Made by a program: the position numbers and the translations under genes. DNA of 64,000 bases, taken from Pelagibius sp. Alg239-R121. Its GTDB lineage: Bacteria; Pseudomonadota; Alphaproteobacteria; Kiloniellales; Kiloniellaceae. Positions 1 through 16,827 of the stretch are shown piece after piece (the first letter of the stretch is position 1; every line of letters begins with the position of its first letter). The notes below the pieces were generated by a model. It did not search any database. It was given only the letters and a program-made list of their open reading frames with translations, and was not told the origin of the DNA. The stretch lies in assembly GCF_947331435.1 (NCBI RefSeq), contig NZ_CAMZOF010000001.1, forward strand, positions 1-64,000, given 5' to 3'.

Positions 1-422
1 TGAAACAAACACATCCCACATAGACCGCCGACCGCGCATCCCTTCCAAATTCATATTAACAATGTCAAAGAACAGGCAACACGGTATCGAATCTCCCTGC
101 CGGTTGTTCCGGCGAGGCGACCCAGCCCCGTGCTGCGGGGCGGGTTATATGCCTGAGGCCCTAGGGTGTCAAACCCTTTTGTTGCATTTTTTTTGCTGTC
201 TTCGGGCCACCCTGGCGCTAGCGGGCGAAAGCCGCTGAATTCTGCGGCTTTCCGTCGAATTCATCATTTGATTACGCTCATTTGCGCACCGCGATCACGG
301 CGCGCCGAAACCGGATTATGTGATTCGCCTGTAACGACTCGAAGAGACGCTGCCACATCGCTTTATAAGACCGGCCTATTTCCTGCTAAAATAGCGGAAC
401 AAACAAAGGGGGAAGCGTTTCC
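1..422. other. Left-edge intergenic region, no gene recognised
   Basis: I see no convincing coding sequence on either strand. A short open frame that starts near 166 has no family resemblance and runs into the next gene. A T-rich run near 186-194 follows a weak 5-bp dyad (agggt/accct) near 163-177 and could be the end of a transcript, but it is too weak to call a terminator. Confidence 0.5.
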
Positions 423-1601
423 GTGAGCAGGATAGACCGTATTGAGATCCACGAATTCACCTTCGAGGTCGAAAACCTCGGCCTCGAGAGCGAATCTGAG
501 AAAGCCGTCTATAACATCGGCTATAAGCCGGGCGGCAGGATCGAACTCTCGAAATACGCCGTGATCATTCGCGCCGACGACGGAACCCAGGGCGAATACG
601 TCACTCATTGGGTCGGCACCAAAGCGGCCCTGGCGCAAAGCCTGATGATGGCACCGAACCTCATCGGCCGCGATCCGGAACAGCGCGAAGGCATCTTTGA
701 CGACCTGAAAAGAGAGTTCCGGCAATACGATCACATGGGGCATGGTCCGCTGGATATCGCGCTCTGGGATCTTGCCGGCAAGAAATACGGCACCTCTGTC
801 GCCAAGCTGCTCGGTGGATACCGTGATCGGCTGCCGGCCTACGCCAGCACCTATCATGCCGACCGCTGCGGTGGCCTGGACAGCAAAGAAGCTTTCGTCG
901 ACTTCGCCGAACACTGCCATGAGCTCGGCTATCGCGCCTTCAAGATCCACGGCTGGCACGACGGGGACGCGCGCGAAGAATCCGAGAACGTCCGCTATAT
1001 GGGTGAACGAATCGGCGACCGCATGACCCTGATGATCGATCCCGCCTGCGAACTGCGCACTTTCGCCGATGCCCTTTATGTCGGGCATGCCTGCGACGAT
1101 GCGGGGTTTTTCTGGCTCGAGGATCCCTTTCGTGACGCCGGCACCTCGGCCTTTGCCCATAAAAGGCTGCGCGAGAAGATCAAGACGCCCCTCCTGCAGA
1201 CGGAACACATCCGCGGCATCGAACCCAAGGCCGACTTCCTGCTGGCCGGCGGCACGGACTTCCTGCGTGCCGACCCTGAGTACGACATGGGCATCACCGG
1301 CTGTATGAAGATCGCCCATCTCGCCGAAGCCATGGGCGTGGACTGCGAGATCCATGCCTGCGGGCCCGCCCACCGGGCCTGCATGTCTGCGATGCGGAAC
1401 TCAAACTTCTACGAGGTGGCTTTGGTGGGGCCGGATTGTCCCAACGCCGTCCCGCCGGTCTATACCTGCGGTTACAGCGACGAGCTGGATTCCGTCGATG
1501 ACGAAGGCTGTGTTGCAGTGCCAAATGGGCCTGGCCTGGGAGTCGCCTACGACTGGGATTTCATTCAAAGCAGGCGCACGGCCTTGCATAGCTTCGAATA
1601 G
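423..1601 (+). CDS. Enolase-superfamily (mandelate racemase/muconate-lactonizing type) enzyme
   Basis: The 392-residue product has the two-part layout of the mandelate racemase/muconate-lactonizing branch: an N-terminal capping domain (about 1-130) and a TIM-barrel domain. Members abstract a proton alpha to a carboxylate using Mg2+; substrates are usually sugar acids, amino acids or cycloalkanoates. The barrel shows FKIHGW (the position where a catalytic Lys usually sits), then MIDPAC, WLEDP and LLQTEHIRG. The Asp, Glu and Glu at successive strand ends fit the metal ligands. MIDPAC differs from the more usual D-x-N. Translation starts at GTG 423. It stands alone, ahead of cell-wall genes, so the context does not reveal the substrate. 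Family assignment is firm; the specific reaction is unknown. Confidence 0.85.
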   Translation: MSRIDRIEIHEFTFEVENLGLESESEKAVYNIGYKPGGRIELSKYAVIIRADDGTQGEYVTHWVGTKAALAQSLMMAPNLIGRDPEQREGIFDDLKREFRQYDHMGHGPLDIALWDLAGKKYGTSVAKLLGGYRDRLPAYASTYHADRCGGLDSKEAFVDFAEHCHELGYRAFKIHGWHDGDAREESENVRYMGERIGDRMTLMIDPACELRTFADALYVGHACDDAGFFWLEDPFRDAGTSAFAHKRLREKIKTPLLQTEHIRGIEPKADFLLAGGTDFLRADPEYDMGITGCMKIAHLAEAMGVDCEIHACGPAHRACMSAMRNSNFYEVALVGPDCPNAVPPVYTCGYSDELDSVDDEGCVAVPNGPGLGVAYDWDFIQSRRTALHSFE

Positions 1602-1877
1602 CTTAACTCTCGACGGCAATTGACTTTTTGCACAACAGATTGCCGGCAAAGGGCTCTGTCACGCCACAACCGATGGATAAGGATCCGGCAAGCCTTGCGT
1701 CACGCTGCACAGCAATGACACAGGCGGAACAGAGATTTTACACGGACGACGCCCGCTAAGGCTTTGCTTTCAATCGCAAATAATCTTGGGACTTCACCAA
1801 AAATTAATGTATATGGTTAACCTTACTAGGGGGGCCGGAACTCGGATTCGGCTAATGTTACACGGAGAGTTCGAGTT

Positions 1878-3752
1878 TTGACGTTTCGCCAACCCACTAA
1901 CCTGTCTGTTCTGGGCAAAACCACCAGTATTTTCAGCACCGGCAAGTTCGAATCAAGCAGCCTATCGCAGCTTAAGCACAACTTGCTGGCCGCAGGCGTC
2001 GTGACGGCGGGCCTGATGGGCGTCTTTACCTTCGGCGTTGGGGCCTGGACCATCGGTGGATGGGTTTTCGGATCCGATACTGCGAGCGTCCAGACGGCCG
2101 AAATCTCAAGCCAGGCCACGACCTCAGCCCAAGCGGGGACCTCAATCCAAGCCAGTACCTTAACCAAGAGCGAAAATACCGCGGAACCGGAATCCGCCCC
2201 TGAAAGGGAACTCGTGGTACGGGTCAGCGACGACAGCGACCAGAACAGCCAGCCACCCGAGAAACCTGAAATCACGCAAACCGCCGCCCTCAACGACGTC
2301 GCAGGCGTCGAAGAGAAAATCGACAATGGCGAAGAAGCGACCGACTCTGTACCGGCTGGCGGGAGCGCGGCTGCCACTGCCTCTAACATCACGGCTCAAT
2401 TTGCCGAAGCTCTCGCAGGCGTCGGCGACGACACGCGAATCTCCCGCGAAGACAGTATCGCCTTCGCCATGCCCACGCTGGACGCCGATGGCACAAGCAC
2501 ACTGGAGCCCAGAACCGTTACGGTATCGCGCGGCGATACACTGATGGGTCTGATGGTTGGCGCCGGTGCCGGCCGTTCGGATGCCCATGAGGCGATCACT
2601 GCGCTGCGCGACGTTTACAGCCCGCGCCGCCTCCGGCCCGGGCAGGATATCGAGCTGGTTTTCGCTCCCATCTCCGAAAACGACGAAGAAGAAGCCAATG
2701 CGCAAGGCAGCGTCGACGATACCGCCGGTGGCGGTCAGTTGATGGGTATGAGCCTGCAGAGTGCCGTGGACGAAATCGTCCGGGTTGCCCGCGCGGCCGC
2801 AAGCGACGACTTTGTTGCCGAAACGATTGCCCGCCCTCTTGACCGTCAGGTCCTGCACGGCAGCGGCACAATCGATAGCAGCCTCTTCGTCGCAGCGCGC
2901 AATGCGAACATTCCCAACTCGGTTATGATCGAGTTGATGCGGGCCTTCAGCTACGACGTGGACTTCCAACGCGAAATCCAACCCGGCGATAAATTCGACC
3001 TGCTGTACGAAGCCTTCTACGATGAAGACGGCAAGATGGCGAAGACGGGCAATATCCTGGTCGCGTCGCTGACATTATCGGGTACACCGCTCAACCTTTA
3101 TGGCTTCACGCCGTCGAGCGGCTTCACGGACTTCTTTGACGAAAAAGGCCAGGCAGTGCGTAAGGCGCTTCTGCGTACGCCGGTTGACGGCGCCCGCCTG
3201 TCGTCAGGCTTCGGCCGCCGCAAGCACCCGATCCTGGGATATACCCGCATGCACAAGGGCCTCGACTTCGCCGCGCCGCGCGGTACGCCGATCTATGCGG
3301 CTGGTGACGGTGTGATCGAACGGGCAGGCCGGAACGGAAGCTATGGCAAATACGTTCGTATCCGCCATCACTCCAGTTACAAAACCGCTTACGCCCACAT
3401 GAAGGGCTTCGCCAAGGGCGTAAAAAAAGGCAAGCGCGTCAAGCAAGGTCAGGTCATCGGTTACGTGGGAACCACCGGCCGCTCGACTGGCCCGCACCTG
3501 CACTACGAGGTGCTGCGTGACAACAAGCAGGTCAATCCGCGGAAAATCAAGCTGCCGGCCGGCGAGAAGCTGAAGAAAAAAGACCTGAAGAACTTTCAGT
3601 CCCATCGGGCCGAAATCGACCAGCTCCGCGAAGACGTCATCGCCCGTAACGCACAGATGGTTCAGGCCAAACCGGCCGACTGCAAAGCGCAACGGACCGT
3701 CGATGAAAGCGGCAGTACCACCGCAGATGCCGCCAGCGCCGACGGCTGTTAG
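1878..3752 (+). CDS. M23 family murein metalloendopeptidase with LysM-like domain
   Basis: The product is 624 residues, starting at TTG 1878. One membrane segment lies at about residues 36-62 (AAGVVTAGLMGVFTFGVGAW). A low-complexity, acidic, Ala/Thr/Ser-rich linker follows, then a LysM/OapA-like module around TVSRGDTLMGLMVGAG (about 213-260), and a C-terminal M23 domain (about 435-560). The M23 zinc site is complete: HKGLDFAAPRGTP supplies the first His and Asp, and GPHLHYEV supplies the HxH. Family members cut peptide cross-links in peptidoglycan in the periplasm; the closest functional models are MepM-type endopeptidases, which make room for new strands. All ligands are present, so this looks like an active enzyme rather than an EnvC/NlpD-type activator. 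A class A PBP lies shortly downstream. Confidence 0.92.
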   Translation: MTFRQPTNLSVLGKTTSIFSTGKFESSSLSQLKHNLLAAGVVTAGLMGVFTFGVGAWTIGGWVFGSDTASVQTAEISSQATTSAQAGTSIQASTLTKSENTAEPESAPERELVVRVSDDSDQNSQPPEKPEITQTAALNDVAGVEEKIDNGEEATDSVPAGGSAAATASNITAQFAEALAGVGDDTRISREDSIAFAMPTLDADGTSTLEPRTVTVSRGDTLMGLMVGAGAGRSDAHEAITALRDVYSPRRLRPGQDIELVFAPISENDEEEANAQGSVDDTAGGGQLMGMSLQSAVDEIVRVARAAASDDFVAETIARPLDRQVLHGSGTIDSSLFVAARNANIPNSVMIELMRAFSYDVDFQREIQPGDKFDLLYEAFYDEDGKMAKTGNILVASLTLSGTPLNLYGFTPSSGFTDFFDEKGQAVRKALLRTPVDGARLSSGFGRRKHPILGYTRMHKGLDFAAPRGTPIYAAGDGVIERAGRNGSYGKYVRIRHHSSYKTAYAHMKGFAKGVKKGKRVKQGQVIGYVGTTGRSTGPHLHYEVLRDNKQVNPRKIKLPAGEKLKKKDLKNFQSHRAEIDQLREDVIARNAQMVQAKPADCKAQRTVDESGSTTADAASADGC

Positions 3753-3789
3753 ATCCTGAGCATTTTTTAGGTTCTCTGGCGACCGCACC

Positions 3790-3812
3790 GTTTTCACTGA
3801 AGCAGTGAAAAC
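3790..3812 (+). terminator. Hairpin 3' of the M23 gene, shared motif TTCACTG..CAGTGAA
   Basis: A perfect 10-bp inverted repeat (gttttcactg / cagtgaaaac) with a 3-nt loop lies 37 nt after the M23 stop. No long T-run follows, so termination is only possible. The core recurs at 51735-51751, which suggests a dispersed intergenic element. Confidence 0.45.
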
Positions 3813-4042
3813 CGTGGGTCAGCATCAAGTGCATCGTCAAAACTGTGATTGAACAAGGCCCGCGCAAGGGCCCGCGGCAATTCCAATTCGGCCGGCTCAA
3901 CGCCGTATGCTGCCGCGCCTTTCATCATCGACACCCTTCCACGGGAAAAGCTGAACGTCCGATGAACGGAGCATTCAGAGAAGGCTCAGCCCCCACCTGA
4001 TACCAATTGGGCAATCGGGTACGGCAAGGGAGAGCCACAGCG

Positions 4043-4621
4043 ATGAGATGCCTCAAAACACCAGTGCTTTGTTTTCTGTTTGGATTGCTTTTCGTTTTTG
4101 CGGTTCTCGTCAACGTTTCTGCGGCTTCCGCCGACGACGACGATCATGATGACAGGCGTCACGCCCATCAAAGTGAATGGCACCATCATGGGCATCACAA
4201 AAAACATCATCATGGGAAAGGCCGAAAATATCGCGGGCAACACTGGGTTCGTCACTACGATGACGACGATCACGACGAGAACTGTGAATACGAAGTTGGC
4301 CGCTCACATCGCCATCACAAGGGCCACGGGCACGGCGGCCGCAAACACCGGCAATACGACGAGTATGAGTATCAGTCGGACGAGCGTTATCTGGACGACG
4401 ATCAACCTCTAGATATCCGGCCGGAAGATACCGTCACTTGGCGAAACCCGAGCCTGCCCAGTCAGGAACCGCGTCAGCCAGAGGTGCGCTTCGACAGCGA
4501 GACCTCCGAATCTGGTCCTTGCAGGGAATACACTACGACAGCGAGAGTTGGCGGCCGGCTGCAGCAGATCTACGGTCACGCCTGCCGTCAGCCGGATGGG
4601 GCCTGGAAATTTGTCCAGTGA
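4043..4621 (+). CDS. Secreted His/Asp-rich protein with C-terminal surface-antigen-like motif
   Basis: I place the start at ATG 4043, with aagggagag about 10 nt upstream; the frame is open further upstream. The 192-residue product begins with a signal peptide (MRCLKTPVLCFLFGLLFVFA...ASA). It continues with a strongly His- and Asp-rich stretch (HHHGHHKKHHHGKGRKY) that could bind metal ions. The last about 35 residues (CREYTTTARVGGRLQQIYGH followed by ACRQPDG) match the C-terminal signature of 17-kDa surface-antigen and glycine-zipper outer-membrane proteins of alphaproteobacteria. Its 3' end overlaps the 5' end of the PBP gene, so the two are probably co-expressed. The product is periplasmic or surface-located; function is not known. 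A metal-buffering role is inference from composition. Confidence 0.7.
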   Translation: MRCLKTPVLCFLFGLLFVFAVLVNVSAASADDDDHDDRRHAHQSEWHHHGHHKKHHHGKGRKYRGQHWVRHYDDDDHDENCEYEVGRSHRHHKGHGHGGRKHRQYDEYEYQSDERYLDDDQPLDIRPEDTVTWRNPSLPSQEPRQPEVRFDSETSESGPCREYTTTARVGGRLQQIYGHACRQPDGAWKFVQ

Positions 4622-6902
4622 CCATAAGGTAAGCCCAGAGCGAAATAGCTTGCACATAAGGAGCGCTTGGCGGAATCAGGCAAAGCGCGCAGGCCTGCTG
4701 GTGCTGACCGGTCTTCTGTTTGTCTGCGCGTCGATCGGCTATTTTGCCTACGATCTGCCCCTGGCATCGAATCTCGAGACACCGTCAGGGCGTTCGTTCA
4801 GCTTCACGAACACCGACGGTAACGGCTTTGCCTTTCGTGGTGTCTACCAGGGCGAAGCGCAGACCTTTGAAGCCCTGCCTGCAGATTTCGTACAAGCCGT
4901 AATCGCGATCGAAGATCGCCGGTTTTTCGATCACGCGGGAATTGACTGGCGCGGCATTGCCCGCGCCACCTGGACCAACTTAAGAGCCGGCGGAGTTCGC
5001 CAAGGCGGCAGCACTCTGACCCAGCAATACGTCAAGCTCGCCTACCTGTCGCCGGAACGCAGCTTGCGCCGAAAAATCCAGGAGGCGATCCTCGCGGTTT
5101 GGCTCGAGTCCAGGCTGAAGAAGAAAGAGATCTTCCGGCGCTACGTTAACCTGGCCTACTTCGGTGCCGGCGCCTATGGCGTCGATGCGGCTGCTCAGCG
5201 CTATTTCGGAAAGCCTGTCGGCAGATTGGACCTCGCCGAAAGTGCCATGCTTGCGGGCCTGATACGCGCACCGTCTCATCTGGCGCCGACGCACAATCTC
5301 GAGGCGGCACAAGCGCGAGCAGGAACCGTGCTTAAGGCAATGATACAAACAGGCCGCATCGAAGAAGACCGCGCCACCAAAGCCATCGCCCGGCCGGCAA
5401 GTCCGAAGACCCTGGCCGGCACCTCAGCTTCAGACGCCTACTTCGCCGACTGGGCACAAGGACAGACGCGCGAACGCCTGGGAGCCGCCTATGGCGATTT
5501 CAATGTCCACACCACTTTGAACCCATCGATGCAGGCCATCGCCGAATCCGTCATCAACGAACGGCTCGCACAGTCGGGGCAGAAGCTTGAAATCGGACAG
5601 GCGGCTCTGGTGGCCATGACACTCGACGGTGCGGTCGTTGCCATGGTCGGCGGAAGAGACTACCGCACGAGCCAGTTCAATCGAGTCACGCAAGCACGAC
5701 GCCAACCCGGTTCTCTGTTCAAACTGTTCGTCTATCAGGCCGCTTTCGATGCGGGGTTCTCACCTGACAGCAGATTGACCGACAAAGCCATTACCGTGGA
5801 AGGCTGGAGCCCGGAAAACTACAGCAAACGCAACCTCGGACCGGTGACGCTGCGCGATGCCTTTGCAAAATCAATCAACACGGTCGCCGTCCAACTCGCG
5901 GAAAAAGTCGGCCGCGAAAAGATTATCGAGGCCGCGGTCGGAATGGGGATCACGTCGCCCCTTACGGCAAACCCGAGCCTCGCGCTGGGAACTTCGAGCG
6001 TGAACCTCCTGGAGATCACCGCTGCCTATGGCGCGGTTGCTGCCGAAACAGCGCGCTTGGAGCCGTATGGCGTCCGCGCGATCGACGCCGGCGGGCAGCC
6101 GCTGTTCCAGCATCAGACAGCCGGAGGCACGAAGCCGGCCAATACAAGGCGCCGGACCCGGAAGGTCTTGCGCGACCTCCTGGCGTCAACGGTCGAACAT
6201 GGCACAGGGCGCGCCGCAAGAATCGGCGAAGCGGCGGGCGGTAAGACCGGCACCAGTCAGGATCATCGCGATGCCTGGTTCGTCGGTTTTTCGAATGATC
6301 TCGTAGTGGGAGTCTGGGTCGGGAACGACGACAACCGACCGATGAAGGGTGTCACCGGTGGTGGATTGCCTGCTGAGATTTGGCACGACTTCATGCTGCG
6401 CAGCAGGCCGTTCCGTCATCAGGCGGCCACCAGAATCAAACTGACAAAGCTCCCCCATATCTCCGCGCCGGCCGATATCACGGCTCGCGGCAAAGACAAG
6501 AGAGAAGACGCAGGCCTCCCCGGCTTAAAGTCCGATACAGCAAAAAAGCCACTCCCATTGGGTTCGCAGCAACAGCAGCCTCGGAAACCGGAACGCTTCA
6601 GGGGTTCGCCCAAGGTCATAGACACGGCAACCCTGCGGTTCGGTGAAACCGAGGTTCGCCTGGTGGGCGTCGGCAGAGGCAGCGAAAGCTTCATCGGCAA
6701 TATGACGAGCTATATCGGCGAGCGGCAGGTGCTCTGCAAGCCTTACACCGTACAAACCCACCGCTGCGAAGTCGGCGGCTTCGACCTGTCAGAAGTCGTG
6801 ATTTTCAACGGCGGCGCCAGGGCTGCAAACGACGCCCCCGCCTATCTTCGAAAAGCCGAGAAAAGGGCGCGCAAAGGCCGGCGTGGTATCTGGGCAAGAT
6901 AG
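4596..6902 (+). CDS. Class A penicillin-binding protein (PBP1-type) fused to a C-terminal SNase-like domain
   Basis: This is a bifunctional murein synthase. An N-terminal membrane anchor (GLLVLTGLLFVCASIGYFA) is followed by a GT51 glycosyltransferase domain with IAIEDRRFFDHAGIDW and RQGGSTLTQQYVKL. A transpeptidase domain then shows SLFK (about residue 373, the acylated Ser), SINT, and KTGTSQDH (about 550). After a charged, Pro-rich linker the last about 93 residues (676-768) resemble a staphylococcal-nuclease fold: a DTATLRF start, EVRLVGVG, a central HRCEVGGFDLSEVVIFNGG, and a C-terminal RRGIW. Two catalytic acids of nuclease appear replaced (Gly and Ser at the D40/E43 positions), so the domain is probably non-catalytic. 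Start choice: ATG 4596 lies inside the preceding gene; TTG 4650, just outside it, is a good alternative. Confidence 0.9.
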   Translation: MGPGNLSSDHKVSPERNSLHIRSAWRNQAKRAGLLVLTGLLFVCASIGYFAYDLPLASNLETPSGRSFSFTNTDGNGFAFRGVYQGEAQTFEALPADFVQAVIAIEDRRFFDHAGIDWRGIARATWTNLRAGGVRQGGSTLTQQYVKLAYLSPERSLRRKIQEAILAVWLESRLKKKEIFRRYVNLAYFGAGAYGVDAAAQRYFGKPVGRLDLAESAMLAGLIRAPSHLAPTHNLEAAQARAGTVLKAMIQTGRIEEDRATKAIARPASPKTLAGTSASDAYFADWAQGQTRERLGAAYGDFNVHTTLNPSMQAIAESVINERLAQSGQKLEIGQAALVAMTLDGAVVAMVGGRDYRTSQFNRVTQARRQPGSLFKLFVYQAAFDAGFSPDSRLTDKAITVEGWSPENYSKRNLGPVTLRDAFAKSINTVAVQLAEKVGREKIIEAAVGMGITSPLTANPSLALGTSSVNLLEITAAYGAVAAETARLEPYGVRAIDAGGQPLFQHQTAGGTKPANTRRRTRKVLRDLLASTVEHGTGRAARIGEAAGGKTGTSQDHRDAWFVGFSNDLVVGVWVGNDDNRPMKGVTGGGLPAEIWHDFMLRSRPFRHQAATRIKLTKLPHISAPADITARGKDKREDAGLPGLKSDTAKKPLPLGSQQQQPRKPERFRGSPKVIDTATLRFGETEVRLVGVGRGSESFIGNMTSYIGERQVLCKPYTVQTHRCEVGGFDLSEVVIFNGGARAANDAPAYLRKAEKRARKGRRGIWAR

Positions 6903-6932
6903 CGCCGGCCCCTCGCGGTTCAGGCAAACCCG

Positions 6933-9524
<2,592 letters not shown>

Positions 9525-9946
9525 ATTTAGAGCCTTCCTCGTCCGCGCCCGATAAATCTGGCACGCAGTCGACGATGCAAAGAGTTTCTCTGACCATGCC
9601 CACAGGATAGCAGCACACGGTAACCACGACGTTGATGAAGATCACCCGTCAAACTGCATATGGGACTGTTGCATAAAAGACACAAGATACGAATCGCCGC
9701 ATTCGATGCTTATGTGAAATTTCGAACTCCATCTGCCCCGACAACCCAGTATTAGATGATCGTTGGACCTAATCTCTTTGAGTTGTTAGGGTTCCGTCCT
9801 CCATTAAGAGAACCCGGCATTCCGCACAGGATTCCAACCCGCCAGACCACTGCACGAATTTCTGGATCTATCGACCAGACGGCCTTGGTATGGCCACCAC
9901 AAGCGGATCGGTCGGCGCATCAAAGAACCAGCAGGGGGCGCCTTCG
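9525..9946. other. Divergent intergenic region between clpB and the MOSC gene
   Basis: About 420 bases hold the clpB leader on the minus strand and the leader of the MOSC gene on plus. I see no RNA gene or strong dyad. The frame of the MOSC gene is open upstream of its likely ATG but lacks conserved sequence there. Confidence 0.5.
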
Positions 9947-10711
9947 ATGGCGATCACGATCACAGATATCCGCCGCTACCCGGTCAAGGGAATGTCTGGT
10001 CAGCAGCTCGACAGGATCAACGTTACAACCGGCCTCGGTCTGCCCGACGACCGCCGCTTCGCTCTGGCGCACGGCTCGACTTCGTTCGACAGCAAAGATC
10101 CTCAGTGGATGCCAAAGAGCAACTTCCTGATGTTGGCCAAGAACGAAAAACTCGCACAACTAAAGACGGCTTTCGATTCGGAAACCGGACATCTGTCGAT
10201 TGAGCGCGGCGGCAAACAGGTGGTGAACGCCAAAATCACGGATCAGATGGGACGAATGATCGTTGCCCAGTTCTTTGCCGGTTTTCTAGGTGACGAAGCC
10301 CGCGGCGCGCCCAAATTGGTGGAGTCGCCGGGTCACATGTTCAGTGACGTGCGCGAAAAATGTCTGTCCATCATAAATCTGGCGTCGGTTTTGGATCTCG
10401 AGCGGGTTGCCCGGGCTCAACTGGATCCGATTCGCTTTCGCGGCAATATCATGATCGAGGGCACGCCGGCGTGGAGCGAGTTCGACTGGGTCGGCCAGGA
10501 AATCGAAATTTCAGGCGTCCGCTTGAAGGTTCTCAGCGAGATCAAACGCTGCCCTGCAACAAGCGTCAATCCTTCGACCGCCGAGCGCGACATCAACATC
10601 CCACTCACGATTCAACGGGGATTCGGACACTTTAATATGGGAATCTACGCCGAAGTGTTGAACGACGGCGAGATATCGATCGGCGACAGCCTTGCCGTGG
10701 GAACTGCCTAG
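9947..10711 (+). CDS. MOSC domain protein (molybdenum-cofactor sulfurase C-terminal type)
   Basis: The start at ATG 9947 is set by aggggg about 9 nt upstream and by homology, since MOSC proteins begin close to ITDIRRYPVKGM. The 254-residue product has an N-terminal MOSC_N beta-barrel (DIRRYPVKGMSGQQL, GLPDDRRFAL) and a MOSC domain with FRGNIMIEG, FDWVGQEIEI and RCPATSVNP, the last holding the conserved Cys. MOSC domains carry sulfur or bind molybdenum cofactor, as in YiiM, YcbX and mARC enzymes that reduce N-hydroxylated compounds. There is no fused ferredoxin domain here, unlike YcbX. It converges on the DUF4167 gene across a strong bidirectional terminator. The exact substrate is unknown. 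Confidence 0.88.
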   Translation: MAITITDIRRYPVKGMSGQQLDRINVTTGLGLPDDRRFALAHGSTSFDSKDPQWMPKSNFLMLAKNEKLAQLKTAFDSETGHLSIERGGKQVVNAKITDQMGRMIVAQFFAGFLGDEARGAPKLVESPGHMFSDVREKCLSIINLASVLDLERVARAQLDPIRFRGNIMIEGTPAWSEFDWVGQEIEISGVRLKVLSEIKRCPATSVNPSTAERDINIPLTIQRGFGHFNMGIYAEVLNDGEISIGDSLAVGTA

Positions 10712-10818
10712 TACACCTGAGGTCGCTTCAGGATTTTCACTGGTTCGTCGAGAAACGTGAAGCCTCTACGCAATAGGCATCGAATCCGAACCAGCGATGA
10801 GTTCCACCCATCGGCACA

Positions 10819-10863
10819 ACAAAGCCCGCCAACAACTTCGTAAAGTGTCATGGCGGGCTTTGT
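10819..10863. terminator. Bidirectional intrinsic terminator between MOSC and DUF4167 genes
   Basis: A perfect 13-bp inverted repeat (acaaagcccgcca / tggcgggctttgt) encloses a 19-nt loop that itself can pair actt/aagt. It lies between two convergent stops and carries T-rich edges on both strands. Confidence 0.8.
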
Positions 10864-10935
10864 CATGTTTCGATGGTCGTGCCAACCAGAGTTTGACTCA
10901 CATTCTCGATCTCTTCCGTCGAGAATGATTGTGCT

Positions 10936-12018
10936 CTATGCGTTGGCGGCGTTCGGTTCGTCCGAACCTTCATCCTTTTCAGCGGCAGGAGCAGCCTCCA
11001 CAACCACTTTGCGGGGACGACCACGCCGCTTCGGCGCGGGAGCAGGCTCTGCTGTGTCGACCGCCGGGGCTGCTTCCACGACCGGTGCACCAGTCGCTGC
11101 TGTCTCCTGGGTCTCTTCCAGAGGACGTTTCCTAGGCCGGCCACGCCGCTTAGGAGCCGGCGCTGCTTCAGCCGCAGGCACGTCGTCAGCTGTCGCTTTT
11201 GTTGAGGCTTCCGTTGCGGCGGCGACAGGTTTGATCGCGGCAGGAATAGATTCTTCCAACGAAGGTGTCGCCGGATCCGGCGGCCTCTTTGACTCCGCTC
11301 GCGCTGCTGGCGCCGGCTGAGACTCGGTGGCCCTGGGACGTCCCCGGCCGCGTTCGCCTAAGCGGCCGCCCCGCGGCGCCCGGCGTTGACCTTCATCGCC
11401 AGACAGAGGAAGTTCGTTTTGCGAGTTGCGCTCGGAAAATGCAGGTGCATTGCCAGGTGTTACCTCGGGCTGCGGTTCAAGACCTGGGACCTCAGTGTCG
11501 TTGCGCGCAGGGCCGCGGCCGCCACGCCGATCCTGATAGCCGGACCGTTCAGAGCGCCCTTGTTCAGACCGACTCTGGTCCGAGCGTCCCTGATCTGAAC
11601 GACCCTGATTGCCACGGCCGGACTGCGTGCCCTGAGGAGACTGATTGACCTCGATCTCGCCATTTGCCTGAGGTGCCGCGTTGCCTTGCGCCATCTGCGC
11701 ACCGGTGCCGTTTTGGCTTGGCGCGGTATGGGCACGATGCGAACCTGCCGACTCCGGATCGGTGCTGTCATTGACGATGCGATAATAGTGTTCGGCATGC
11801 TGATAGTATGCCTCAGCCGCTATTCGATCACCTGACGACGTCGCGTCCCGGGCGAGGCCAACATACTTTTCGTAAACCTGACTCGCGTTGCCGCGAATCC
11901 GGCCGTCTGGGCCGTTGCTGTCATAGGTTCCCGAACGATGCTGGCCACCGCTGTGTTGCTTGCGATTGTTCGTACGACCGCGCGGTCGCCGACCGCCATT
12001 AGAATTTTGCTGTCTCAT
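10936..12018 (-). CDS. DUF4167 domain protein with long basic, Ala/Pro-rich tail
   Basis: The first about 85 residues match the alphaproteobacterial DUF4167 family: an Arg/Asn-rich beginning (MRQQNSNGGRRPRGRTNNRK), then an alpha-helical stretch with QVYEKYVGLARDATSSGDRI and EAYYQHAEHYYRI. The remaining about 270 residues are low complexity: Gln/Gly/Arg/Ser-rich repeats (GRSDQGRSDQSRSEQGRSER) and three PKRRGRPRK-type AT-hook motifs. The composition suggests nucleic-acid binding, perhaps RNA. The family is usually found next to prmC and prfA, as here, but its biochemical role is not established to my knowledge. It is transcribed in the same direction as prmC, 174 nt downstream. Confidence 0.88.
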   Translation of the reverse strand: MRQQNSNGGRRPRGRTNNRKQHSGGQHRSGTYDSNGPDGRIRGNASQVYEKYVGLARDATSSGDRIAAEAYYQHAEHYYRIVNDSTDPESAGSHRAHTAPSQNGTGAQMAQGNAAPQANGEIEVNQSPQGTQSGRGNQGRSDQGRSDQSRSEQGRSERSGYQDRRGGRGPARNDTEVPGLEPQPEVTPGNAPAFSERNSQNELPLSGDEGQRRAPRGGRLGERGRGRPRATESQPAPAARAESKRPPDPATPSLEESIPAAIKPVAAATEASTKATADDVPAAEAAPAPKRRGRPRKRPLEETQETAATGAPVVEAAPAVDTAEPAPAPKRRGRPRKVVVEAAPAAEKDEGSDEPNAANA

Positions 12019-12192
12019 CGTTCACTTACTTAAGAACGGAATAAATGCCGCTCGCACCACTGTCTTCTCAATCGAAAGCTCAGTCTAGCGAGAATGAACC
12101 ACGCACACTTTTCAGGATCGTGGGGCGCCCCTCAGGACGCAAGAGCAATTGCTCGGCAAAGCCAACCTAGCGGTCCGACTCCCCATTTCCAA

Positions 12193-13089
12193 CTACTTTT
12201 TTGCCTTGACTGCAAAACAACAGCGTTCGACCCCGGAAAGATCACACCTCCGCCAGGGCAAACCAAGGCCGGCGTCCAGCAGCATCGCCTCAACAGCCTC
12301 CGCCTGACCAACGCCGACTTCCAGTGCCAACAGGCCGGAGTCTTTCAGCAACACTGCGGCTTCAGGGATCAGAATCCTATAGTCCCGTAGACCATCCGGC
12401 CCTCCCGTCAAAGCCTGCAAAGGATCGTAGTCCGCGACCTCCGGCGCCAAATCCGCAATTTCGGATTCGGCAATGTACGGCGGGTTGCTCAGAATAATAT
12501 CCCAGGTTCCAATCAGGCCCGATGTCCAGTCGTGGCACGCGAAATCAGCTCGCGACCCAAGCCCGAGGTTTCTTGCGTTTTCCTCTGCAACTGCCAACGC
12601 CTGCCTGGACATGTCAACACCGAGTCCTCTGGCATTGGGCAATTCGGATAACAGTGCCAAAAGCAAACAACCCGTCCCCGCACCCAGGTCGAGAATCCGC
12701 AGAGGCTGTGCTTTATCCTCGGCCCACGCAAGAATCCCCTCGATCAGGGTTTCACTGTCGGCGCGCGGGTCCAGCGTGTCAGGGGTGATTTTGAACGTGA
12801 GACTCCAAAACTCGCGCTCGCCGAAGATGCGTGAAACGGGCTCGCGTTTTTCCCGCCGGCATACCACAGCTTCAAATGCCTGCTGCTCAGACTGCGTCAA
12901 AGCCTTGTCCGGTTCACGCAGCAACGCCGAAGCACCTCCAGGAAGAATCGCTGCCAGCAAGAGGCGGGTGTCGCGGCGGGGGCCTTCGATCCCCGCAGTT
13001 TTGAGACGCTGGGATGCAAGATTCAGCGCCTCCGCTGCCGTGATGGTCGTAGAATCGTGCATCGATGAAGCTTTTGGTGCAAGAATCAT
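12193..13089 (-). CDS. prmC: Release factor glutamine N5-methyltransferase PrmC
   Basis: The 298-residue protein methylates the Gln of the GGQ motif in peptide release factors using S-adenosylmethionine. It has the N-terminal helical domain and a Rossmann methyltransferase domain with [19 protein letters not shown] and the diagnostic NPPY motif ([10 protein letters not shown]). The start ATG overlaps the prfA stop by 4 nt (ATGA), which fixes this start and shows translational coupling to its own substrate, RF1. A second ATG nine codons in is possible. The protein acts in the cytosol. Confidence 0.96.
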
Positions 13090-14162
13090 TGAATTTCGGC
13101 GAGCTTTGCCGCCTGATTTTCGGCAATTAAGGGCCCAATCAGCTCCCCCAAAGCCTCTCCGGTGATCACTTTATCCAACTTGTAGAGCGTCAGATTGATG
13201 CGGTGGTCGGTGACGCGGCCCTGGGGGAAATTGTAAGTCCGGATTCGCTCGGAACGGTCACCGCTCCCGACCTGGCTGCGGCGATTCTCGGCGAGCTCGT
13301 CCTCTTGCTGCTGGCGCATGTGATCGTAGAGACGGGCGCGCAGCACCTTCATCGCCTTGGCCTTGTTCTTGTGCTGGGATTTCTCGTCCTGACACTGCAC
13401 CACGACCCCGGAGGGCAGGTGAGTGATGCGAACGGCCGAGTCGGTGGTGTTCACATGCTGGCCACCGGCGCCCTGAGCGCGGTAGGTATCGACGCGCAGA
13501 TCCTTGTCCTCGACGTGAACGTCGACATCTTCAGCCTCCGGCAATACCGCCACCGTTGCGGCTGAGGTATGGATCCGCCCGCCCGATTCGGTCACCGGAA
13601 CCCGCTGAACACGATGGACGCCGGATTCGAACTTCAGTTCAGCGAAAACCCCGCGGCCTGAGATGGCAGCGCTGGCTTCCTTGACGCCGCCGATGCCCGT
13701 GTCGGAGAAATCCAGCACTTCGAAACGCCATCCGTGGGAATCCGCAAAGCGCTGATACATCCGGAACAGCTCCGCTGCAAAAAGCGCGGCTTCGTCGCCG
13801 CCCGTTCCCGCCCGGACCTCCAGGATGGCATTGCGCTCGTCGTCCTTGTCCTTTGGCAGCAACAGCAGCTGCACCTCGTGCTGCAGCTTGGGGATCCGTT
13901 CCTTGAGGCCGTAGAACTCCTCCTCCGCAAGCGCCTTCATTTCGGCATCGGAGTCGCCATCGGTCATCATTTCGGCGAGATCGGCCATCTCATTCTGTGC
14001 CTCACGAAGCTGCGTAATCGCCTCGACGATCGGCGTAACGTCGGAGAACTCCTTGAGCATGGCCGTATAGTCGCTTGAGCCCGGATCATTATGGTGCGCC
14101 AAAAGGTCGCGCAATTCGTCATGGCGCGCCGCTACGGCATCAAGCTTTTCGTCCAGGTTCAC
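13086..14162 (-). CDS. prfA: Peptide chain release factor 1
   Basis: RF1 recognises UAA and UAG stop codons and triggers peptide release. The 358-residue protein has the N-terminal helical domain, a central domain and the GGQ catalytic loop ([18 protein letters not shown]). The GGQ Gln is the residue methylated by PrmC, encoded by the next gene with a 4-nt overlap. The RF1-type codon-recognition region lies in the middle domain. GTG at 14162 is the start, 6 nt after the hemA stop, so hemA-prfA-prmC is a tight operon, an arrangement also known from enterobacteria. Confidence 0.97.
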
Positions 14163-14168
14163 GCCCTG

Positions 14169-15572
14169 CTACTCCTTCAAACTCTCGTCACTACGAGCCA
14201 AACTCTCGCCGCTTCCAGCGGCTTCACCGACGGAATCCGCGCTTTCATCAGCCTCGTCCACATCGTCTCTGACGCCTTGCGCCAGCCCAAACAAACGCCG
14301 GGCCGCGGAAGAAAGGCGTTCCTCATCCGGTCTCTCGGGACCTTCATCAGCGGCATTCTCGCGCAGCACCTTTGATGGTTCGTGGAGAAGCCGATTGATC
14401 AGCAAGCGTGTCGCACCTTCGGCGTCCAGCTTTCCTTCGCTTAAAACCTGGTCCCGCACAACTTCGAAATGACGGCGCAGATCCGCGACAGCCGGACCAG
14501 CCGCCCGCTCAGCCCAGCGGCGTTCGAAGCGCAGCAGCTCTTCGCCCACAATCTTCCAGGCTGCCATCGTCGCTGTCTCGCGCGAAACCTTACCGGCCAG
14601 CGCCAGCTTCTCCAAGTCGTCGAGATCGTAGACGTAAACGCCATCCATCTCGCCGACCTCAGGGGCAACGTCTCCCGGAGTCGAGGCATCGACCACGAAG
14701 ATCGGTTTCTTGCGCCGTTGCCGGAGCGCCGCCGCTATCATCGCCGGCTCAAGGCTATAGCGCCCGCCCCCTTCGGCCGTGATAACGATATCGGCAGCCG
14801 CCAGAGCCAAATCGAGCTGTCCCCAGGGGCGGGTATGACACCCGAACCGATGAGACGCAATCTCTGCCCGGCGGTCGGAGCTGTGCAGAACCGTCAAATT
14901 CGCGAGCCCGGCAGCCCGAAACTCGACCGCAAGCAACTCACCCATTTCGCCGAGGCCAACCAGGAGACCCGCACATCTTGCAAGATCGCCGTGCAGGTCC
15001 CGCGCGGTTTGCAGTGCCGAAGCAATCAGGGAAACGGGCTGCTGGGCGACCGGTGTCTCGCTGCGCACGCGTTTCGCCGTGGCGAAAGCCGCCTGCATGA
15101 CCGATTCGATCAGCGGTCCGCCCATGTCCTGTTCGATCGCCTGCCGATGGCTCGACTTGACCTGTCCAAGAATCTGCGGTTCGCCAATCATCTGGCTGTC
15201 TAATGAGGAGGTCACCGCGAAGACATGACGCAAGGCCGCACGTCCCCGGTGAAAATAACCCTCTTCATCCAGGATACGATCGTCGCCGCCGATCCGCCGC
15301 GCCATAACCTTACGTAAAGCGGATTCGGTCGTGCATTCCGCCTCGGCCCCAGTCATGCGGTCGCCGACTGATTGAGACGCAACAATATCGAGCCTCTCGC
15401 AGGTCGATATCACCAGCGCTTCGCGCAGACCCACGGCCTGCAGGTCATCGAGAATAAGCGACTGATCGGCTTCTTCGGCAAAGAGCTGTTCGCGCAGCGC
15501 CAGCGACGCTGTCCGCTGGCTGATGCCAATCACGACAAGACGTTCGGTAGGAGGCAGGTCTGCGGCGGCCAC
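14169..15572 (-). CDS. hemA: Glutamyl-tRNA reductase
   Basis: HemA reduces glutamyl-tRNA to glutamate-1-semialdehyde with NADPH, the first committed step of C5-pathway tetrapyrrole synthesis. Visible features are the N-terminal catalytic domain with GISQRTASLALREQL and STCERLDIV (nucleophilic Cys), the NADPH-binding domain (GLLVGLGEMGELLAVEF), and the C-terminal dimerization domain. At 467 residues it is longer than the usual about 420, owing to an acidic Ser/Asp/Glu-rich tail of about 50 residues after LFGLAQGV. TCERLD differs from the common TCNR but keeps Cys and Arg. The start is GTG 15572, 10 nt after hisS. Many alphaproteobacteria use the ALAS (Shemin) route, so a C5 enzyme here is of taxonomic note. 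Confidence 0.93.
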   Translation of the reverse strand: MAAADLPPTERLVVIGISQRTASLALREQLFAEEADQSLILDDLQAVGLREALVISTCERLDIVASQSVGDRMTGAEAECTTESALRKVMARRIGGDDRILDEEGYFHRGRAALRHVFAVTSSLDSQMIGEPQILGQVKSSHRQAIEQDMGGPLIESVMQAAFATAKRVRSETPVAQQPVSLIASALQTARDLHGDLARCAGLLVGLGEMGELLAVEFRAAGLANLTVLHSSDRRAEIASHRFGCHTRPWGQLDLALAAADIVITAEGGGRYSLEPAMIAAALRQRRKKPIFVVDASTPGDVAPEVGEMDGVYVYDLDDLEKLALAGKVSRETATMAAWKIVGEELLRFERRWAERAAGPAVADLRRHFEVVRDQVLSEGKLDAEGATRLLINRLLHEPSKVLRENAADEGPERPDEERLSSAARRLFGLAQGVRDDVDEADESADSVGEAAGSGESLARSDESLKE

Positions 15573-15582
15573 AATCCGCCCG

Positions 15583-16827
15583 CTAGCGATACCGGGCGAG
15601 GTGCTCGATCACTGCATCCAGGGAAACGAGTTCCTGTTCGCCTGAGTCCAGATCGCGGATCGTGGCGGAGTTGTTCGCCAGTTCGTCCTCACCCAACAGC
15701 ACGGCGGCGCGAGCTCCCAGTTTGTTTGCACGCTTCATACGCTTGCCGACATTACCACTGAACCCCAGTTCAACGCCATATCCGGCATGACGAAGCTTCT
15801 GAGTCAGCGTCAGAGCGATTTCTTCGGTTGCCTGCCCCACGGGAATCACCGCAATTGGCCTGGGTACCGGCGGATCACGATCCATCAACATGGAAAGCCG
15901 CTCGATACCGGCGGCCCAGCCAACACCCGGCGTCGCCGGCCCGCCCATGGTTTCGACCAGACCGTCATAGCGGCCGCCGGCCAGCACCGCGCTCTGGGCG
16001 CCGAGCAAGTCCGTCGTGAACTCGAAGGCCGTGTGACAGTAGTAGTCCAAACCGCGGACCAGACGGGTGTTGAGCTCAAAGGCTATGTTCAGACGTTCGA
16101 GGCCCTGTTTGACCGCCGCAAAAAAGTCCTGGCTCTCCGCATTCAGATAGTCACTGAAGACGGGGGCCCCTGCGACCAACTTCCGGTCGCCTTCATTCTT
16201 CGAATCGAGAATCCGCAAGGGGTTGCGTTCCAGCCGGTCCCGGCTGTCGCTCGATAAGGCATCACTGTGATCAGAGAAATACTCGACGAGGGCGGCACGG
16301 TAGGCCTGGCGGCTGTCGGTATCGCCAAGGGTATTGAGTTCCAGCTTGGTATTCTCGTAAACGCCCAGCCCTGAAAGAATATGCGCCCCCAGTGCAATCA
16401 GCTCAATGTCGCCCTGCGGTTTCGGCACCCCAAGAAGCTCGGCACCGATCTGGTGGAATTGGCGCTGACGGCCTTTCTGCGGCCGCTCGTGCCGGAACAT
16501 GGGGCCGGCGTAGAAGTACTTCAGCGGCAATTGCTGGCTCAAACCGCCAGACATCAGGGCGCGCGCCACTCCGGCCGTGTTCTCCGGACGCAAGGTGATC
16601 TGCTCCCCCTCCTTCATGGAAAAGGTGTACATTTCCTTGGTGACAATGTCGGAGGTATCGCCAAGCGTACGCTTGAAGACTTCGGTAAACTCGAAGATGG
16701 GAGTCGCCATCTCCAGATAGCCGTAACGCTCCGCGGTTTCGCGCGCGATATCTATGACGGCGCGCTGGCGCCGCATCTCGTCAGGCAGTATGTCGCGTGT
16801 GCCGCGGACTGGTTGCAGGGCTGACAC
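15583..16827 (-). CDS. hisS: Histidyl-tRNA synthetase
   Basis: This 414-residue class II aminoacyl-tRNA synthetase charges tRNA-His. The class II motifs are visible: motif 2 around FRHERPQKGRQRQFHQIG, the histidine-binding signatures LVRGLDYYCHTAFEF and AQSAVLAGGRYDGL, and motif 3 GVGWAAGIERL. The C-terminal anticodon-binding domain follows (PIAVIPVGQATEE). GTG 16827 is preceded by a ggag ribosome site. It lies between ispG and hemA, all co-directional, and is probably co-transcribed with both. Confidence 0.97.
   Translation of the reverse strand: MSALQPVRGTRDILPDEMRRQRAVIDIARETAERYGYLEMATPIFEFTEVFKRTLGDTSDIVTKEMYTFSMKEGEQITLRPENTAGVARALMSGGLSQQLPLKYFYAGPMFRHERPQKGRQRQFHQIGAELLGVPKPQGDIELIALGAHILSGLGVYENTKLELNTLGDTDSRQAYRAALVEYFSDHSDALSSDSRDRLERNPLRILDSKNEGDRKLVAGAPVFSDYLNAESQDFFAAVKQGLERLNIAFELNTRLVRGLDYYCHTAFEFTTDLLGAQSAVLAGGRYDGLVETMGGPATPGVGWAAGIERLSMLMDRDPPVPRPIAVIPVGQATEEIALTLTQKLRHAGYGVELGFSGNVGKRMKRANKLGARAAVLLGEDELANNSATIRDLDSGEQELVSLDAVIEHLARYR

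Follow-up and report, generated by a model that had tools for sequence, protein, structure and literature searches.

Class A penicillin-binding proteins (PBPs) are regulated partly through accessory domains and partners. The PBP1A family (TIGR02074) combines a transglycosylase and a transpeptidase behind an N-terminal anchor, and PBP1C proteins with BiPBP_C (PF06832) are class A PBPs with a further domain, of about 90-100 residues, at the C-terminus. A further point of comparison is provided by the SNase-like proteins (PF00565) that are exported by Alphaproteobacteria. In active staphylococcal nuclease the catalytic residues are D21, D40, E43 and R87.

Here we describe a class A PBP encoded in a 64,000-nucleotide stretch from Pelagibius sp. 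Alg239-R121, hereafter the window (Table 1). Its core and anchor are those of the PBP1A family, whose cut-off it passes (554.5 vs 508.75 bits), but it adds a C-terminal SNase-like module. As in PBP1C, the extra domain is C-terminal and of similar length. Identity with PBP1C and its BiPBP_C tail was nevertheless rejected: BiPBP_C (PF06832) has no match at E 0.001 in the window genome, the TIGR02073 score falls below its cut-off (359.4 vs 494.2 bits), and so does that of the best-scoring NCBIfam model for this protein, PbpC NF051885 (601.4 bits, cut-off 900). The architecture is the same in a PBP1A family protein of Microvirga ossetica (WP_237050587.1, plasmid record NZ_CP016618.1), the product name of which does not mention the tail. 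No description of a PBP fused to an SNase-like tail was found among the titles and the first parts of abstracts in a full-text literature collection that leaves most subscription journals outside its scope. As far as this search reaches, the architecture is undescribed, which agrees with the initial annotation, where the fusion was not known to be described.

Table 1. Features of the PBP locus, with positions in the window.
Feature	Residues	Position	Strand	Basis
Class A penicillin-binding protein with C-terminal SNase-like tail (ATG at 4596, stop codon ending at 6902)	768 aa	4596-6902	+	ORF, Pfam, NCBIfam, motifs
N-terminal hydrophobic segment, probable membrane anchor	29-47	4680-4736	+	Kyte-Doolittle scan
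Transglycosylase domain, EDRRF motif at 106	88-249	4857-5342	+	Pfam PF00912, 5.4e-62
Transpeptidase domain, SLFK 373, SIN 426, KTGT 550	339-571	5610-6308	+	Pfam PF00905, 3.4e-25
Linker, poorly conserved among relatives	about 605-668	6408-6599	+	Sequence
Compact SNase-like domain	about 669-768	about 6600-6899	+	Profile comparison, alignments
His/Asp-rich ORF	204 aa	4007-4621	+	
M23 peptidase with Csd3_N2 domain		1878-3752	+	

PBP core and SNase ancestry of the tail

The coordinates and length first assigned to the PBP are correct, and its transglycosylase and transpeptidase motifs are intact, as had been claimed. The PF00912 domain contains the catalytic Glu motif (EDRRFFDH) as well as GGSTLTQQ at residue 137 and RKIQE at residue 159, and the PF00905 domain contains SxxK (SLFK), SxN (SIN) and KTGT; we take these motifs to have their customary roles. 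Judged by them, the protein would be a working transglycosylase/transpeptidase. The Kyte-Doolittle scan picks out a second hydrophobic stretch, residues 333-351, where the transpeptidase domain starts; it is taken as a buried strand. With a single N-terminal membrane segment, the rest of the chain, tail included, is predicted to lie in the periplasm. Counted from the start of GKTGT, the chain runs on for 220 residues in the window PBP but for 110-111 in the nearest untailed PBPs (L060-L062). The same genome holds a second PBP, which is of the ordinary kind and untailed.

Matches of the window tail alone to Pfam, NCBIfam and the PDB are weak or absent: its last 107 residues, taken as a single sequence, score 14.3 bits against the Pfam SNase family (PF00565), below the cut-off of 21, and phmmer against the PDB gives no match up to E 10. 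Profiles of relatives were therefore used. Within its own order the tail has SNase-like proteins as matches, with E-values down to 1.1e-5, and closer copies of it occur elsewhere in the class (best 6.1e-20). When 15 close copies were compared by hhalign with nine exported SNases, all nine of which have a Pfam SNase match, the two profiles aligned over 104 columns with a probability of 99.2% and an E-value of 2.1e-19, as against at most 1.1% in five column-shuffled controls. Either half of the tail, built from 38 copies, suffices for a match to the exported SNases (N-terminal half 96.4%, 1.4e-9; C-terminal half 97.3%, 2.2e-11). The profile of the nine exported SNases in turn matches solved staphylococcal nuclease structures at 3.4e-13. 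A five-copy tail profile has only three matches in the PDB up to E 10, all of them in the SNase family (best E 0.23), and in Pfam searches up to E 1 the SNase family was matched by four of five tails.

Profile comparison thus shows the tail to be homologous, at the level of sequence, to the SNase-like superfamily (PF00565), and the likeness to be more than chance. The initial annotation had read the last 93 or so residues as SNase-like and proposed that a class A PBP here carries a degenerate SNase-like module; both proposals stand, the latter also by the replacement of catalytic residues in all 38 tails. The Pfam search that it had suggested fails with the single sequence, while profile-profile comparison succeeds. 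The tail may adopt an OB-fold. A single-sequence AlphaFold2 model of residues 664-768 has five strands and one helix, at a pLDDT (45.4) too poor to be read.

Carriers, distribution and history of the compact tail

The 38 distinct compact tails are distributed over 15 class A PBPs, 2 degraded PBPs, 16 relatives of one membrane protein and 5 other proteins, and every one of them ends within 4 residues of the end of its ORF. The class A PBPs comprise the window protein, 13 from other genomes and one from Microvirga ossetica; three of these 15 were scanned with Pfam (window, L161 and L166), seven were checked by script, and the rest were read by eye. SLFK and KTGT are present in all seven script-checked proteins. 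Membership in the membrane-protein group was assigned by blastp match to one reference protein from genome G337, which is itself counted among the 16. Among five non-PBP carriers scanned with Pfam, one has SH3 domains, one has an LCCL domain and three have no match. A hydrophobic segment is present in 9 of the 12 non-PBP carriers scanned for one, and the tail-bearing proteins other than PBPs look surface-exposed. In five genomes of genus g245 a tailed PBP and a tailed membrane protein occur together, as judged by sequence.

Several individual carriers deserve mention. The tailed membrane proteins at L109 (6739-8196, minus strand), L158, L159, L160 and L157 have an N-terminal part without known identity; those of L109 and L158 have no Pfam match, and a membrane segment is found in four of the five but not in the protein of L157. 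At L156 (3632-5713, plus strand; genome G633) and L220 (genome G897) the PBP part is degraded and the SNase-like tail is kept. A Pfam scan of three PBP-like carriers found both PBP domains in two of them and the transglycosylase only in L156, where there is no Pfam transpeptidase match. L220, a cut locus outside the Pfam scan, has neither SLFK nor KTGT in the available part of its sequence and a weak blastp match.

The tail is not unique to the window. In a sample of the class, compact tails scoring at least 109.8 bits were found in 4 of 385 genomes (G000, G337, G091 and G404); because the next best match scores 54.8 bits, the high-scoring copies form a discrete set. Within the order of the window, only the window genome has a compact tail among 61 genomes; 27 of the 61 have some match to the tail at 1e-4, the best of the others reaching 46.4 bits as against 152.5. 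Compact tails are present in 22 of 199 genomes in the family of G337, in a search that matched ten genomes of genus g245, and in the G667 family in 1 of 15. The G337 family search listed 34 tails, of which three, on frames of 832 aa (G910), 822 aa (G798) and 407 aa (G897), lie outside the examined set. A phylum-wide sample, for which the number of genomes outside the class is not given, contains the compact tail in 6 of 378 genomes, all from the class of the window. Three compact tails were found in 72,556 plasmid records, from Methylobacterium bullatum and Microvirga ossetica, and viral contigs contain no relatives of the tail. Outside the tail, the M. bullatum carrier agrees at 91% with the G337 carrier, a resemblance that makes genus g245 probably Methylobacterium.

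A survey of related PBPs for the same tail, which the initial annotation had suggested, yielded 14 others that are tailed and form one clade with the window. In a tree of the catalytic part with 71 rows (15 tailed PBPs and 56 untailed ones, the latter being loci chosen from searches rather than all PBPs of those genomes, and the degraded L156 and L220 being left out), all 15 tailed PBPs group together with support of 99/98 and no untailed row falls inside. The window branches first in this clade, and the closest untailed neighbours in the tree are three paralogues from genus g6, which belongs to the same order as the window. An earlier, quicker tree with 8 tailed PBPs among 64 rows agrees. The simplest reading of the catalytic-part tree would be a single gain of the tail on the PBP; losses of the tail may have taken place outside the clade. 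A tree built from the tails only was set aside for this purpose, being poorly resolved; in it the window tail is a long branch (1.08) and lies nearest, by path, to tails of membrane proteins.

Active-site residues and constraint

Residues of the tail were read off alignments in the numbering of Staphylococcus aureus nuclease. In the window D21 is replaced by Ala678, D40 by Gly693 and E43 by Ser696, and the stretch containing R87 is deleted, so that none of the four catalytic residues is present; the Gly and Ser initially reported at D40 and E43 are among these replacements. D19 (Asp676) and R35 (Arg688) are retained. The same pattern holds in part across the 38 tails: D19 is kept in all, the D21 position is Ala, Gly or Ser in all, the E43 position is Glu in none and Asp in one, and R35 is Arg, Lys or His in 36. 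The D40 position, Gly in the window, is acidic in 29 of the 38. A Glu stands one place before the E43 position in seven tails, where a small shift of the alignment would therefore matter. Given these two observations, it is not clear-cut outside the window that every acid has been lost.

Aligned with the exported SNases, to which they are homologous over their whole length, the tails lack both the R87 stretch and the stretch after the D40/E43 position, in addition to the replacements of D21 and E43. Two cysteines are invariant in all 38 tails (Cys714 and Cys724 in the window) and align with two cysteines of the exported proteins, which suggests that a disulfide may link them. Thirteen residues in total are invariant, nine of them Gly, Ala, Val, Leu or Trp; these nine may only hold the fold, and a ligand surface is therefore not identified by them.

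In some small stand-alone SNase-like proteins (L092, L094, L096 and L097) the first motif reads VIDAGSL, VIDAATL or VIDAGTI in place of VIDGDT; the D21 acid is thus also missing outside compact tails.

Constraint was estimated by simple pairwise counting, for which six pairs of PBPs and four of membrane proteins were used. In close pairs the tail is under purifying selection: its dN/dS in the three closest PBP pairs is about 0.13, 0.08 and 0.14, and that of the core about 0.11, 0.17 and 0.22. Tail identity in the three wider pairs is 54, 40 and 39%, against 67, 54 and 50% for the core, and tail dN/dS is about 0.5-0.65 at a high dS of 0.69-1.26. The part that varies most, in each of the six pairs, is the linker (identity 26% between the window and G667 PBPs, as against 40% for the tail and 54% for the core). 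All four membrane-protein pairs have a tail that is more conserved than the remainder of the chain, with 93% vs 65% and 89% vs 40% identity in the two closest. The two degraded PBPs are 78% identical in the tail and 54% in the compared body, which covers 443 aligned residues including the linker, the L220 locus being cut.

Possible roles of the tail

A conserved C-terminal module without nuclease residues, attached through a variable linker and found on different kinds of carrier, is best read as a binding domain. A binding role had also been proposed in the initial annotation, with peptidoglycan, nucleic acid or a periplasmic partner as candidate ligands. We consider it rather likely that the tail is a dead-nuclease periplasmic binding module which, on a flexible linker, docks an accessory PBP to some envelope partner. 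The linker would join the class A core to the compact periplasmic module, and the module, which probably works as a docking domain, would recruit or position the PBP through that partner. Other proteins of these bacteria that bear the tail would most likely bind the partner as well. Tentatively, and with the balance of probability against so specific a picture, the tail may be a previously undescribed periplasmic adaptor through which one shared partner is contacted by both an accessory class A PBP and a separate membrane protein, in a so far unrecognised envelope complex of Methylobacterium-like and related Alphaproteobacteria.

The tail might instead bind glycans or peptides of peptidoglycan directly and hold the PBP on nascent wall, as other wall-binding modules do. 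The module does sit on a wall synthase, and another carrier pairs it with a bacterial SH3 domain, a type of domain that often binds the wall. It is also found, however, on relatives of a membrane protein, two of which had no Pfam domain when scanned, and when five tails were searched against Pfam up to E 1 the sole wall-related name was S_layer_C, at E 0.051 and for one tail. We regard direct wall binding as unlikely and prefer a shared protein partner to peptidoglycan, because the carriers include membrane proteins without a known wall domain. That the tail contacts and modulates the catalytic domains of its own PBP is improbable: such autoregulation would fit the tailed clade of the 71-row tree, in which the lack of any untailed PBP implies that the tail is not readily lost, but the module occurs on proteins that are not PBPs and, in the two degraded PBPs, is better conserved than the compared body.

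Binding of DNA or RNA outside the cytoplasm, without cutting, is less probable again. It would be in keeping with the SNase ancestry and with the basic or His residue at the R35 position of most tails, but the residues of D21 and E43 and the R87 stretch are lost, and why a wall synthase should bind nucleic acid is not apparent to us. Scarcely credible, finally, is that the likeness arose by chance, or that an assembly or frame artefact has produced a tail without function. The sub-threshold Pfam score and the 60 other genomes of the order without a compact tail could be cited for it, but it is already contradicted by the relatives, namely the 14 other tailed PBPs, one of them in the Microvirga ossetica plasmid record, as well as by purifying selection in close pairs and by the low scores of the shuffled controls. 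Among Alphaproteobacteria, the clade of PBPs with this conserved, dead-nuclease module offers a concrete handle in the search for new regulators or scaffolds of wall synthesis, and the presence of the module on other proteins too points to a partner in common, which could be fished out. The tail would also be an example of an SNase-like domain reused, without its active site, outside the cytoplasm.

Gene neighbourhood was compared in nine loci, namely positions 1-16000 of the window and eight other tailed loci, with spurious antisense frames included. The genes around the window PBP give no hint of a partner in this comparison, and none of them is shared with the other eight loci, the PBP and frames overlapping it being all that is common. 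The Methylobacterium-like loci do have neighbours in common, and one ORF, a "cyclase-domain protein" according to the L166 record, occurs in both L161 and L166. Directly upstream of the window PBP, the His/Asp-rich ORF (no Pfam match at 0.001) overlaps its start by 26 bases and may be co-transcribed with it. The M23 peptidase lies further upstream on the same strand, possibly a wall hydrolase near a wall synthase.
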